Below are positions 16,942-21,349 of a stretch of 64,000 nucleotides of DNA, one piece after another (position 1 is the first letter of the stretch; each line of letters opens with the position of its first letter). The translations under genes were made by a program, and so were the position numbers. The stretch is from Haladaptatus sp. DJG-WS-42 (GTDB lineage Archaea > Halobacteriota > Halobacteria > Halobacteriales > Halococcaceae). The notes beneath the pieces were generated by a model that made no database searches, was not told the DNA's origin, and saw only the letters and a list, made by a program, of their open reading frames with translations. The stretch lies in contig NZ_CP147243.1 of assembly GCF_037198285.1 (NCBI RefSeq), positions 496,001-560,000 of the forward strand. The letters are read 5' to 3'.

Positions 16942-18021
16942 ATGCACCGCCGCCATTTCCTCCACCTCGGAGCTATTTCAACGCTCGGTCTCGCTGGGTG
17001 TCTCAATCAAGGGACACAAGGTGACGCCGACACCACGACCACTTCGCAAACGACGACTGCGACAACGGCGGCGGCAACAGACGAGGAGAGTCGTGGCGTC
17101 TACATTCAGTCGTTCGTCGAGGGGATGTACATGGCCGGGATGGCCGATGCTGGCCCGTACAAAGTCGGCCTGATGTACACCGTCCCCCACGAGTTTTGGA
17201 ACGTGAATGGAGCCAGCCTCCAAAAAACCGCCATCGAATCGTCCGATTCGGTGCACCTGATGACGACCGTCTGGGACCCAGAAACCGGGATTGTCCTGCC
17301 CGAATCAGGCGTCTCAGTCGAACTCGCTGGCCAAGAAGAAGTCATCTATCCGATGCTCTCCCAGCGCATGGGCTTTCACTACGGCGACAACATGCCGCTC
17401 GGCGACGACGGCACCTACACCGCAACCGTCTCAGTCGGCGGCATGAACATCCGACGCACCGGCGCGTTCGCAGAGAAATTCGGCGACCCAGCCTCCACCG
17501 ACATCGAATTCGAGTTCACGAAAGATACTCGCGAGCAGATTTCCGTCACCGAAATCGAAGAGGCGGGCAATCCCGGTTCAGTCAAACCAATGGACATGAT
17601 GATGCCACTCGGCTTCGCGCCCGAGCGCGACGCGCTCCCCGGCACGCTCCTCGGTGAAGCAAAAAGTGGGGATGCGTTGTTCTACGCGACGCTCCTCTCC
17701 GGTGGCGACGTGCCAGCCGGTATCGACGCCGAGAGCTACCTCGCCGTGTCGGCGAGAACACCGTACAACCGGTTTGTCCTTCCGGCGATGGCGCTCAGTG
17801 GAACACTTTCACGCGGTGGCGAAGAGGTTTATAGTGGGATGTTCGAGCGAACGCTCGACCCCGACCTCAATTACCACTACGGCGCGGACGTCTCTGGTGT
17901 CGAATCCGGCGATACGCTCACGCTCACCGTTGAGACGCCACCACAGGTCGCGCGTCACGAGGGTTACGAGACCGCCTTCCTCGACACGACCCCGTTCGAG
18001 GTGACGCTGTCCGGGCAGTGA
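16942..18021 (+). CDS. Tat lipoprotein with two P19/Tp34-like metal-binding domains, paralogue 1
   Basis: 359 residues from ATG 16942. The signal MHRRHFLHLGA is Tat-like, and LAGC is the lipobox, with a Thr-rich linker anchoring the protein outside the cell. Domain 1 (about 55-195) has GMYMAGM, HLMTTVWDPETG, YPMLSQRMGFHYGDNM and a strand GTYTATVSV; this follows the Fe/Cu-binding P19-Tp34 (PF10634) layout. Domain 2 (about 225-358) repeats the pattern with NYHYGADV, LTLTVETPP and ARHEGYETAF. It is 82 percent of a tandem pair with the gene at 19068 by gene order and shares a near-identical tract. The transported or bound metal is unknown. Confidence 0.82.
   Translation: MHRRHFLHLGAISTLGLAGCLNQGTQGDADTTTTSQTTTATTAAATDEESRGVYIQSFVEGMYMAGMADAGPYKVGLMYTVPHEFWNVNGASLQKTAIESSDSVHLMTTVWDPETGIVLPESGVSVELAGQEEVIYPMLSQRMGFHYGDNMPLGDDGTYTATVSVGGMNIRRTGAFAEKFGDPASTDIEFEFTKDTREQISVTEIEEAGNPGSVKPMDMMMPLGFAPERDALPGTLLGEAKSGDALFYATLLSGGDVPAGIDAESYLAVSARTPYNRFVLPAMALSGTLSRGGEEVYSGMFERTLDPDLNYHYGADVSGVESGDTLTLTVETPPQVARHEGYETAFLDTTPFEVTLSGQ
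17335..17518. repeat. Near-identical tract shared with paralogue 2 (copy 1)
   Basis: This 184-base stretch aligns without gaps to 19431-19614 and shows only about five differences by eye, two of them in a single codon, while flanking parts of the paralogues are clearly diverged, for example right after the tract. A second, shorter match starts at about 17671 and 19773. The pattern suggests recent gene conversion between the two lipoprotein genes. Confidence 0.8.
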
Positions 18022-18057
18022 GGCTTTATTGACGGCGGGTGAACGGAGCGATAATCG

Positions 18058-19002
18058 ATGAAACGGACGAGTCGAGCGGTTGTTGCACTGGCCCTCACGC
18101 TTTCACTCCTCGCAGGTGCGACAACGGCGAGCGCCCACGGAAACCACCTGAGTGCAGACAGCCAAGTGTCCGGCGACGGCTCGGTCATGGTCGAACGGCT
18201 GTTCGTCGACCAAGCCGCGTACCTCGTGTTGCACGCAGACAACGACGGGAATCCGGGCAAAGTGATTGGGCACAAAGCCGTCTCTCGCGGCTTTCACGCA
18301 CCGATTTCGGTGGAGATGAGCGACGAGTTCTGGAACGACATGGCGGGCAACGAAACCGTCTGGGCAGTGCTCCACGAGGACAACGGCGACGGCGAGTTCA
18401 ACCCGAAAAGTGACGGGGAACTCCAAGCCTTCGGTGGGGCCGCAGCCACGCCAATCACGGTGCGAAAAGGCGCAGGTTCCGTCTCCGTCGCCGCCGCCGG
18501 GTTCAGCGTGAAAGAGACGCAGGTGAACAACGTGACAATTCCGCAGGTCACGACCAGCCAATCGAGTTTCCTCGTCCTCAGAACCAACACGAACGGTGCG
18601 CCCGGTGAAATCGTCGGCCACGCACCGCTCGCGGCAGGAACAGAGACCAACGTCCCCGTCATCATCAATGAAACCTACTTCGACGCCCAGCAAGCCCAGT
18701 TCCTCCTCTGGGCAACCGTGTACGAAGACAACGGCGACGGCGAGTTCGACCCCGCGACCGACAAACTCGTCACAGCCGGTGGCGTGCCGGTCGCATCGCT
18801 GTTCACCGTCGCAAAACCGCTCGGAGACAACTCGGGCGACGGCGGATTGGTGAACACACCGTCACAGACGGCCACCCAAACCACGACGGACGCCGAACCA
18901 ACGCAGACACCCACAACGACAGAGGGCCCCGGATTTGGCGTGCTGGCGGCGCTCGTCGCGCTCTCCGGGTTCGTCTGCATCCGACTCGGCCGCCGCGTGT
19001 GA
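18058..19002 (+). CDS. DUF7282-type surface protein with PGF-CTERM anchor
   Basis: 314 residues. A Sec signal peptide ends near ATTASA; two repeats of about 110 residues follow. The repeats have parallel elements such as VWAVLHEDNGDGEFNP and LLWATVYEDNGDGEFDP; the DNGDGEF loop resembles a calcium-binding DxDxDG motif. A Thr/Gln/Pro-rich linker, probably glycosylated, leads to GPGFGVLAALVAL and a basic tail, the PGF-CTERM archaeosortase signal. The protein is therefore predicted to be secreted, processed and lipid-anchored beside the two P19-like lipoproteins. The upstream gap is 36 bases, so cotranscription with paralogue 1 is likely. Confidence 0.85.
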   Translation: MKRTSRAVVALALTLSLLAGATTASAHGNHLSADSQVSGDGSVMVERLFVDQAAYLVLHADNDGNPGKVIGHKAVSRGFHAPISVEMSDEFWNDMAGNETVWAVLHEDNGDGEFNPKSDGELQAFGGAAATPITVRKGAGSVSVAAAGFSVKETQVNNVTIPQVTTSQSSFLVLRTNTNGAPGEIVGHAPLAAGTETNVPVIINETYFDAQQAQFLLWATVYEDNGDGEFDPATDKLVTAGGVPVASLFTVAKPLGDNSGDGGLVNTPSQTATQTTTDAEPTQTPTTTEGPGFGVLAALVALSGFVCIRLGRRV

Positions 19003-19038
19003 CACTGTCCCAGTTTCGATGACTGAACCAGAAACGTC

Positions 19039-19046
19039 TTTTTTAA
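19039..19046 (+). promoter_or_regulatory. TATA box of lipoprotein paralogue 2
   Basis: TTTTTTAA ends 22 bases before ATG 19068, consistent with a leaderless message. A second AT element (TTATATAC, 19052-19059) lies too close to the start to be the TATA box. Its presence suggests that paralogue 2 can be transcribed independently of the upstream genes. Confidence 0.5.
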
Positions 19047-19067
19047 CCCTCTTATATACTCACAGCA

Positions 19068-20120
19068 ATGAATCGGCGCACGTTTCTTCGAGCCAGTGCC
19101 CTCACCGGCGCAGCCTCGCTCGCTGGCTGTACCGGGTTGTTCGAGAGTCAATCAGTTCGCGAACCACCGCTCGCAGACTTCCGACCAAACGCCGTCTACC
19201 TCCCGACTCACGCAGAGGGGATGGAGATGGCAGGCATGGGAAAGGGCGGAGACTACCAGTTCGGGCTGATGTACAGCTACCCACACCGATTCTGGAACAT
19301 GAACGAGCGTGCAACCCAGAAGACGAGCGTCACCGCAGAAGACACCGTCCACCTGATGGCAGTCGTCTGGGACCCAGAAACGGGCACCGTCCTCCCCGAA
19401 ACCGGCCTGTCGGTCGAACTCGACGGCGAGGAAGAAGTCATCTATCCGATGCTCTCTCAGCAGATGGGCTTTCACTACGGCGACAACATGCCGCTCGGCG
19501 AAGACGGCACCTACACCGCAACCGTCTCAGTCGGCGGCATGAACATCCGACGCACCGGCGCGTTCGCAGAGAAATTCGGCGACCCAGCCTCCACTGACAT
19601 CGAATTCGAGTTCAGTCAAGAAACCCTCGAAGCCCTCCCGTATCGCCTGCTCGAAGACGAAGCCGGGAACAAAGGTGCGCTTGAACCCATGCAGATGGGA
19701 ATGATGCCAAGCGCCACCGCGCCAGCGAAAGACGCCTTACCCGGTGCGTTCATCGGCGAGGCCACGAGCGGCGATGCGCTGTTCTACGCGACGCTCCTCT
19801 CCGGTGGCGACGTGCCAGCCGGTATTGACGCCGAGAGCTATCTCGCGCTCTCTGCACGTACGCCGTACAACCAGATGGTGCTCCCGTCGATGGGGCTCTC
19901 CGGGTCGCTCGCAAGTGGTGGTGAAATCGTCTCCGAACTCACCTTCGTCCGTACCTTAGACCCCGACCTGAACTACCACTACGGCGCGGCACTCGACGGA
20001 GCTGCGTCGTGGGACGAACTCAGTATCACAGTGGACATCGTCCCACAGGTCGCTCGCCACGAGGGCTACGAAACCGCCTTCCTCGACATGGAACCGATGA
20101 CGATTCAGCGCTCGTCGTAA
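19068..20120 (+). CDS. Tat lipoprotein with two P19/Tp34-like metal-binding domains, paralogue 2
   Basis: 350 residues. The signal MNRRTFLRASALTG is Tat-like and SLAGC the lipobox; the Thr-rich linker of paralogue 1 is missing. Domain 1 starts AVYLPTHAEGMEMAGMG, with Met-rich potential ligands, and continues HLMAVVWDPETG and MGFHYGDNM. Domain 2 ends with NYHYGAAL and ARHEGYETAFLDM. Residues 125-185 are nearly identical to paralogue 1, whereas the rest is diverged, including a Met-rich segment (PMQMGMMPS) that could carry metal ligands. The 3' end overlaps the convergent beta-propeller gene by 16 bases. Confidence 0.82.
   Translation: MNRRTFLRASALTGAASLAGCTGLFESQSVREPPLADFRPNAVYLPTHAEGMEMAGMGKGGDYQFGLMYSYPHRFWNMNERATQKTSVTAEDTVHLMAVVWDPETGTVLPETGLSVELDGEEEVIYPMLSQQMGFHYGDNMPLGEDGTYTATVSVGGMNIRRTGAFAEKFGDPASTDIEFEFSQETLEALPYRLLEDEAGNKGALEPMQMGMMPSATAPAKDALPGAFIGEATSGDALFYATLLSGGDVPAGIDAESYLALSARTPYNQMVLPSMGLSGSLASGGEIVSELTFVRTLDPDLNYHYGAALDGAASWDELSITVDIVPQVARHEGYETAFLDMEPMTIQRSS
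19431..19614. repeat. Near-identical tract shared with paralogue 1 (copy 2)
   Basis: Partner of 17335-17518, offset by 2096 bases in direct orientation. Synonymous third positions are also identical over most of the tract, which selection on the protein alone does not easily explain. Direct repeats of this size could also recombine and delete the intervening DUF7282 gene. Confidence 0.8.
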
Positions 20121-21349
20121 GTGTAGGCAAATACCCGGCCGTCGCCGTACATCACGTAGATTTCTGCCGCCCCGTCACCGTCCGTGTCCGCGAGCGCCGG
20201 GTGCGTGAAAATTTGGACGTCGCGCTGGCTGGTCGCAAGCACGGCGCCGGTTTTCGGGTCGACGACCGAAACGATGCCGTCGTTCGACACTGCGACGAGT
20301 TCGTCCTCGCCGTCGCCGTCCACGTCGCCGAGTTTCGGCGGCGGCATCATCTGTACCGACTCGGTGGTGAGCGTTGTCTCCCACTCGATGTCGCCGGTAG
20401 CGGCGTCGATGCTCCGCAGGTTGCCGTCTTTGGCCGTCGCGTACACCTCTGTGTCGCCGTCGCCATCACCGTCACCGAAGGCGTGTACCGCCGCGAGTTG
20501 ACCGAAGTTGTGTTCCCACTGCACCGCGCCGGCTGCGCCATCGACCATGCCCACATCACCCCCGACCGTCGCCACGACGATTTCGTGTTGGGCGTCGTCG
20601 TCTGCCTGCCCGGCGGTCATCCACGTGATGGAGCCGTCGAATGGCGAAATCGTCCACTGTTCGGTGCCGTCTGCTTCGTATAGCCGAATTTCGCCGCTCG
20701 ACAAGCTGAGCGCGACTTCGGCTTGCCCGTCGCCGTCGAAGTCAGAGACGGCAGGCTGGCCCCACACGTACGTCGAGAGGTTGTCTGTCCACAGGGCGGT
20801 GCCGTCGGGGCGAATCACGGCGACCGTCCCTTTGATGTCAACGACGACGATTTCTGCCGTTCCGTCGCCGGTCACGTCTGCGACGACTGGTTGCGTGTAG
20901 CCATACGAACTGAGTTCGTAGCGCAGTTCCTCTTCGCCCGTGAGCGGGTCGAACGCGATAACGGCCTGCTCGGTGGTCGCTGCGATGACCTCGCGAGTGC
21001 CATCGCCGTCGTAATCAGCGAGCGCGGGGTCTGCAACCGAGTGAATCTCACAGCCGTCTTCGGGAATCTGATGTGTCCACCGCGTCTCTCCCGTGCTCCC
21101 AGAGAGGGCGACAAGCGCACACCCCTCCGGGTCGGTGGGGCCGCTCACCGGCGCGTACACCCACGGTTGGCCGTGGATTCGTCCCGCGGCGGGCGCGTGG
21201 TGGTTCGATTGGACGGAGCGCCCGGTGTCAGAGACCCACTGCTCGGTGAGCGTGCCACTCGGATTCAAGACGTTCGTCGCGCCGAGGGCGGCGAGGCTCC
21301 CGAGGGTCACCACGAGGAGGGCGAGGGCGAGGGCCGTCCGGGGTCGCAT
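20105..21349 (-). CDS. Secreted VCBS/FG-GAP beta-propeller protein
   Basis: 414 residues from ATG 21347-21349 (MRPRTALAL), which begins a single hydrophobic N-terminal signal or anchor. The rest contains seven or more repeats with the pattern ADYDGDGTREVIA, ADVTGDGTAEIVV, SDFDGDGQAEVAL, GDVDGDGEDELVA, typical FG-GAP/VCBS calcium-binding blades. PQQ-enzyme-like strands (GTALWTDNL, DIEWETTL) separate them. It is likely extracellular, with a role in surface binding or scaffolding. It converges on the P19-like gene; whether they cooperate is unknown. Confidence 0.88.
   Translation of the reverse strand: MRPRTALALALLVVTLGSLAALGATNVLNPSGTLTEQWVSDTGRSVQSNHHAPAAGRIHGQPWVYAPVSGPTDPEGCALVALSGSTGETRWTHQIPEDGCEIHSVADPALADYDGDGTREVIAATTEQAVIAFDPLTGEEELRYELSSYGYTQPVVADVTGDGTAEIVVVDIKGTVAVIRPDGTALWTDNLSTYVWGQPAVSDFDGDGQAEVALSLSSGEIRLYEADGTEQWTISPFDGSITWMTAGQADDDAQHEIVVATVGGDVGMVDGAAGAVQWEHNFGQLAAVHAFGDGDGDGDTEVYATAKDGNLRSIDAATGDIEWETTLTTESVQMMPPPKLGDVDGDGEDELVAVSNDGIVSVVDPKTGAVLATSQRDVQIFTHPALADTDGDGAAEIYVMYGDGRVFAYTYDER

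Follow-up and report, generated by a model that had tools for sequence, protein, structure and literature searches.

Layout of the lipoprotein cluster

The window analysed here, a stretch of 64,000 nucleotides from the haloarchaeon Haladaptatus sp. DJG-WS-42 (contig NZ_CP147243.1, positions 496,001 to 560,000), carries two related lipoprotein genes, LP1 and LP2, on either side of a gene for a DUF7282 protein, with a beta-propeller gene running towards them. We found that both lipoproteins belong to the superfamily of P19, a bacterial protein that binds iron and copper, and have two homologous halves; the results below support an extracytoplasmic metal-handling system. The features are listed by their positions in the window.

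16942-18021, plus strand: LP1, 359 residues, twin-arginine translocation (Tat)/lipobox lipoprotein with a PF10634-like N half, a DUF7350 C half and lipobox Cys20
17251-17534, plus strand: LP1 tract 89% identical to the LP2 tract at 19347-19630; its core has the pattern of gene conversion
17254-17379, plus strand: predicted metal ligands of the LP1 N half, H105, M107, M138, M143 and H146, placed by the profile alignment at P19 H42, E44, M88, D92 and H95 and conserved in 56 of 56 sequences
17875-17970, plus strand: candidate ligands of the LP1 C half, H312, H339 and E343, equivalent to P19 H95, H132 and the Glu of DKET
18058-19002, plus strand: DUF7282 protein, 314 residues, with two immunoglobulin (Ig)-like domains, a PGF-CTERM anchor and the predicted mature N terminus H27-G-N-H30
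19068-20120, plus strand: LP2, 350 residues, the second double-P19 lipoprotein, with lipobox Cys21
19350-19475, plus strand: predicted metal ligands of the LP2 N half, H95, M97, M128, M133 and H136, from the profile alignment and conservation
19977-20072, plus strand: candidate ligands of the LP2 C half, H304, H331 and E335, from the profile alignment and conservation
20105-21349, minus strand: beta-propeller of the FG-GAP/PQQ type, with invariant NHH and C..C..H motifs

LP1 and LP2 share 66% identity, and both start with an RR pair and a lipobox Cys, as in Tat-type lipoproteins. The propeller gene is convergent with LP2, the two 3' ends overlapping by 16 bp. Three genomes of the genus were examined, this one and the two others found, and each has the order LP1-DUF7282-LP2-propeller. 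By eye, TATA-like stretches were seen at 19041-19058 and 18024-18030, 10-30 bases upstream of the LP2 ATG and the DUF7282 ATG, respectively. These stretches suggest that the two genes have separate leaderless promoters rather than belonging to a single operon. Sigma-70 promoter scans are not meaningful for archaea and were set aside.

Both lipoproteins consist of two P19-type halves

Pfam assigned DUF7350 to the C half of LP1 (E 2.8e-52) and of LP2 (E 1.4e-47), with scores of 176.5 and 161.3 bits against a gathering score of 27, making both full-scoring members. In the N half, PF10634 (Iron_transport) scored 21.6 bits for LP1, just over the cut-off of 21, and 14.6 bits for LP2, under it. A single-sequence phmmer search of the PDB sequences with LP1 gave nothing useful, and a family profile was required. 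The profile of 56 family sequences matched only FtrA, FetP, FtrA-P19, Tp34 and HftA among the PDB sequences, with FtrA at 4e-6. We then compared an AlphaFold2 model of LP2 (mean predicted local distance difference test score (pLDDT) 91.2, predicted template modelling score 0.86) with the PDB by Foldseek. The first 29 matches were P19, FetP, FtrA, Tp34 or HftA chains except for one designed-cage chain (best E 1.9e-5, probability 1.00), and the probability dropped clearly after the P19-type chains. The same model had no match at E<=0.001 in a viral structure library, and a search of viral contigs for P19 found none.

The two halves were also related to each other. Profile comparison of the N half with the C half gave E 1.6e-7, and the DUF7350 model matched the N halves of relatives as well, up to 5.8e-9. 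In profile-profile comparison with canonical P19 proteins, drawn from Azospirillum, Arsenophonus and E. coli plasmids, the two halves gave E 4.6e-9 and 1.9e-5. LP1 and LP2 are P19-superfamily proteins with two homologous halves, and the DUF7350 domain (PF24041), a catalogue entry without an assigned function, reads from these profiles as a diverged second P19 domain.

Methionines replace the acidic iron ligands in the N half

Residues of P19 are numbered here as H42, E44, D46, M88, D92, H95 and H132, partly from general knowledge of the family and partly from PMC9174327. In the profile alignment, LP2 H95 corresponds to P19 H42, M97 to E44, V99 to D46, M128 to M88, M133 to D92 and H136 to H95; the P19 segment DVHLEAD is paired with SVHLMAV, and MPMVAN-DGPHYG with YPMLSQQMGFHYG. 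No His of the N half aligns with P19 H132, which corresponds to H331 in the C half of LP2 (RHEGYE), where the His of the HYG turn is H304. The P19 copper set of H42, M88, H95 and H132 is thus complete in neither half, with three of the four in the N half and only H95 and H132 in the C half.

Conservation was nearly absolute at these positions. LP2 H95, M97, M128, M133 and H136 in the N half, as well as Y305, R330, H331, Y334 and E335 in the C half, were invariant in 56 of 56 sequences, and H304 was kept in 55. The acidic iron ligands E44 and D92 are replaced by invariant Met and D46 by non-acidic residues, mostly Ser, Thr or Val (residue 99). M52, M208 and M210 are further near-invariant Met, and some relatives carry Met-rich inserts of 8-16 Met next to the site. 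The Mn (iron-mimic) site of P19 consists of Glu3, Glu44, Asp46 and Asp92 and lies ~7 A from the Cu site (PMC9174327), so that at least E44, D46 and D92 of this site are lost. The alignment indicates that the P19 iron site has been dismantled and its copper side kept and enriched in Met in the N half, which points to copper without proving it.

Compared with the P19/FetP/FtrA/Tp34/HftA family (PF10634), LP1 and LP2 share the fold, the HYGxN turn and the equivalents of H42, M88 and H95 in the N half and of H95 and H132 in the C half. They differ in the tandem duplication within one chain, in being archaeal Tat lipoproteins, in the change of E44 and D92 to Met, and in the lack of FTR1 in the genome.

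These results bear on a prediction made earlier from the bare DNA (the original prediction), which had placed a P19/Tp34-like fold and a conserved His/Met set in both lipoproteins. The Foldseek matches of the LP2 model, the profile alignment and the homology of the halves uphold the fold in both halves, and the His/Met set proved invariant across the 56 sequences, so that neither of the refuting outcomes named with the prediction, an unrelated fold or the lack of a conserved site, was observed. The two halves had further been described as alike in their motifs; the HYG turn does occur in each, while ARHEGYETAF is confined to the C half. The claim of two P19-type metal sites per chain was not supported in that form, since the ancestral ligands are split unequally, with 2 His and 3 Met in the N half and 2 His and a Glu as candidate ligands in the C half.

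Gene conversion across the predicted metal site

Alignment codons 136-195 encode the MxxxxMGFHYG turn and the RRTG strand. In this genome, LP1 and LP2 were 96-99% identical in DNA over these codons, whereas the identity of LP1 to its orthologues over those windows was 76-91%. Similarly, the paralogues in another genome (G356) were 87-93% identical, compared with 76-80% between LP1 orthologues. This pattern indicates that the metal-site segment was homogenised at least two times independently, in two species. A second tract in this genome, near codons 241-270, resembles a conversion from LP2 to LP1.

An N-terminal HxxH motif in the linked DUF7282 proteins

Pfam assigned DUF7282 to the middle protein of the cluster, and its PGF-CTERM match lay exactly at the cut-off. 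The structure model (pLDDT 81) showed two Ig-like domains and a C-terminal helix. We identified an HxxH motif directly after a signal peptide with an A-x-A-like end (AxA followed by H) in 13 of 13 locus-linked DUF7282 proteins, and in 0 of 5 unlinked DUF7282 proteins with a visible signal peptide. The motif was recorded at 18058-19002 of the window and at loci L196, L197, L198, L033, L034, L105 and L116-L118. This subfamily-specific trait at the predicted mature N terminus is more telling than the DNGDGEF loops to which the original prediction had drawn attention. YcnI and other copper brace proteins use a His at this position (PMC8424229). If cleaved before His27, the DUF7282 protein would present a histidine-brace-like terminus as in YcnI. 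It also resembles YcnI (DUF1775) and CopC in being secreted and in having the predicted N-terminal His, an invariant Glu and Trp and a C-terminal membrane anchor, but it differs from them in its double Ig-like domains, with no sequence or fold match and no cupredoxin detected.

A lipoprotein-DUF7282 fusion was considered for L105 (8237-10807), where a metagenome-assembled genome has one frame without a stop. The shared frame consists of filler and a fresh signal peptide, and the run-on open reading frame is probably a frameshift rather than a fusion.

Partner genes across the haloarchaea

Of 392 haloarchaeal genomes, 337 carry DUF7350. Among 69 evenly sampled genomes, 57 had both DUF7350 and main-clade DUF7405 and 12 had neither, a perfect co-occurrence in counts without phylogenetic correction. 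The two families are jointly present or absent inside the genera g8, g12 and g22; because they vary together within at least three genera, the co-occurrence does not reflect one deep event. Moreover, DUF7405 lay at most 5 kb from a DUF7350 gene in 50 of 91 cases, and the divergent DUF7405 clade was linked to DUF7350 in 0 of 15. A polytopic membrane protein was found in 45 of the 57 DUF7350 genomes versus 0 of the 12 genomes lacking DUF7350.

Neighbours were counted in 30 loci for which resemblance to LP2 was the sole criterion of choice. DUF7405 occurred in 18 of these loci, the polytopic protein of ~460 residues in 15, the propeller and DUF7471 in 9 each, and an HTH_HVO_0163 protein in 8. In this genome, the DUF7405 and polytopic genes are adjacent to each other at C1:309601-312264, ~200 kb from the window cluster. 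In Halorarius litoreus and H. halobius (L033, L034), by comparison, a single row comprises the propeller, a lipoprotein, DUF7282, DUF7471, HTH, a lipoprotein and DUF7405, which ties the window genes to a wider DUF7405 system.

DUF7405 is Tat-exported and matches the C-terminal domain of DyP (PF20628, 9e-5). DyP peroxidases carry a haem His, an Arg and the Asp of GxxDG. In DUF7405 (L132:9066-10343 and relatives), the candidate haem His329 and Arg346/347 are invariant, and the corresponding GFVGxG lacks the GxxDG Asp. Profile matches of DUF7405 to BurrH were rejected as signal-peptide artefacts, and the DyP matches in the same search were weak. The polytopic protein has an invariant His, and no relative of it was found in the PDB or in Pfam. 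The propeller is assigned to FG-GAP/PQQ by Pfam; its family has an invariant NHH near the N terminus and an invariant C..C..H, which are unusual for plain FG-GAP propellers. In a further neighbour family with ~10 transmembrane segments (L105, L039-L041, L108, L114), a CCCC(G/A)P-type motif is conserved, and the predicted terminus is AxA followed by H.

The conserved gene order and the convergent propeller agree with the original prediction, which had described the system from this cluster; the DUF7405 and polytopic genes at another locus, and the Halorarius row, extend it beyond the window. Its proposal of surface metal handling is supported by association, through gene linkage and co-occurrence, and its proposal of electron shuttling found no direct support.

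Copper, iron or another function

In the explanation that we prefer, tandem duplication of a P19 Ig-like domain would have given rise to LP1 and LP2 as membrane-anchored proteins. Replacement of the acidic iron site of the N half by two invariant Met would leave a 2His/3Met site whose soft ligands suit Cu(I); this site may take up copper on the outer side of the membrane and hand it on to partners. The C half may hold another site, weaker or for Cu(II), or serve as a structural or docking domain. The DyP-like DUF7405 may handle the redox state, and the polytopic membrane protein may be the importer or acceptor, so that LP1/LP2, the DUF7282 protein, the propeller, DUF7405 and the polytopic protein would form an extracytoplasmic system for copper capture and delivery (or import). 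We infer the direction of transfer and the contacts between these proteins, and we regard the case for copper as the metal as evenly poised. The wider proposal is more doubtful, though possible: that a near-universal copper acquisition system combines a Cu(I)-converted duplicated P19, an N-terminal-His DUF7282, a DUF7405 haem protein and a new membrane family, and that the class-wide 'iron transporter' names are wrong.

The best-surviving alternative, although unlikely, is an iron system, a haloarchaeal equivalent of EfeUOB/FtrABCD. Fe(II) would then be bound by the double P19 and oxidised by DUF7405 (or by Cu on the P19 domain), and the polytopic protein would take the permease role of FTR1. 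Homology to P19/FtrA/FetP, the DyP-like DUF7405 partner in every DUF7350 genome sampled and the automatic annotation of DUF7350 proteins as "iron transporter" agree with iron. EfeUOB and FtrABCD/FetMP likewise combine a P19-type binder, a Tat-exported DyP-like protein and a membrane protein, but the conserved set here has no FTR1 permease and no cupredoxin/M75 EfeO, and the distal motif of its DyP-like protein is altered by the missing GxxDG Asp. The replacement of E44, D46 and D92 in all or nearly all sequences also argues against iron. Canonical P19 genes adjoin FTR1 at the reference loci; a search of this genome found no FTR1, 247 Halobacteriota genomes showed no canonical P19, and neither the PDB nor Pfam gave a relative of the polytopic protein.

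Several points weigh against copper. DyP peroxidases (EfeB) are characteristic of iron systems, and one relative has a ferritin-like gene nearby. The perfect co-occurrence is phylogenetically uncorrected. For the DUF7282 protein, cleavage before His27 is predicted from its sequence alone, and its model gave generic Ig-like matches only in the PDB, with no cupredoxin or CopC/YcnI-type fold. A P-type ATPase near eight relatives was rejected as proof of copper; the YN/MxxSS signatures typical of Cu(I)-ATPases are missing from it, and it may be of the Zn/Cd type. Finally, the kept copper site does not exclude iron, because P19-type iron importers need a copper site too: P19 and FetP require it for iron transport, according to the title of Chan 2020, which PMC10783030 cites.

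Heavy-metal or copper tolerance is improbable. The lipoproteins would then buffer toxic metal at the surface, with efflux pumps accompanying the plasmid-borne versions, and plasmid copies in Haloarcula, Haloferax and Halobaculum do have P-type ATPases for heavy metals and CDF transporters nearby. The Met-rich inserts would also suit this role. However, the ATPase occurred in only 1 of the 30 similarity-fetched loci, compared with 18 for DUF7405, and a near-universal gene in the class suits a housekeeping function better. Least probable of all is a scaffold or extracellular redox partner (electron shuttle) without metal transfer, which the propeller, the DyP-like protein and occasional HiPIP neighbours might suggest, since 2His/3Met in 56 of 56 sequences resembles a binding set and the lipoproteins have no redox cofactor motif.

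A probable, widespread metal-handling system

The literature search covered open-access papers. It returned no papers on DUF7350 or DUF7282, and neither the second-P19 nature of DUF7350 nor the lost iron site nor the pairing with DUF7405 was found there; a Haloferax mediterranei copper survey made no mention of such a protein under the terms tried. The haloarchaeal DUF7350 metal-handling system is widespread and undescribed in the open literature searched. Copper uptake and distribution in haloarchaea, which serve halocyanins, terminal oxidases and denitrification enzymes, are poorly known. A widespread "iron transporter" family whose partners co-occur perfectly and whose ligand swap can be tested offers concrete genes and point mutations for this question, and it shows how the P19 iron/copper module may be re-tuned by duplication.

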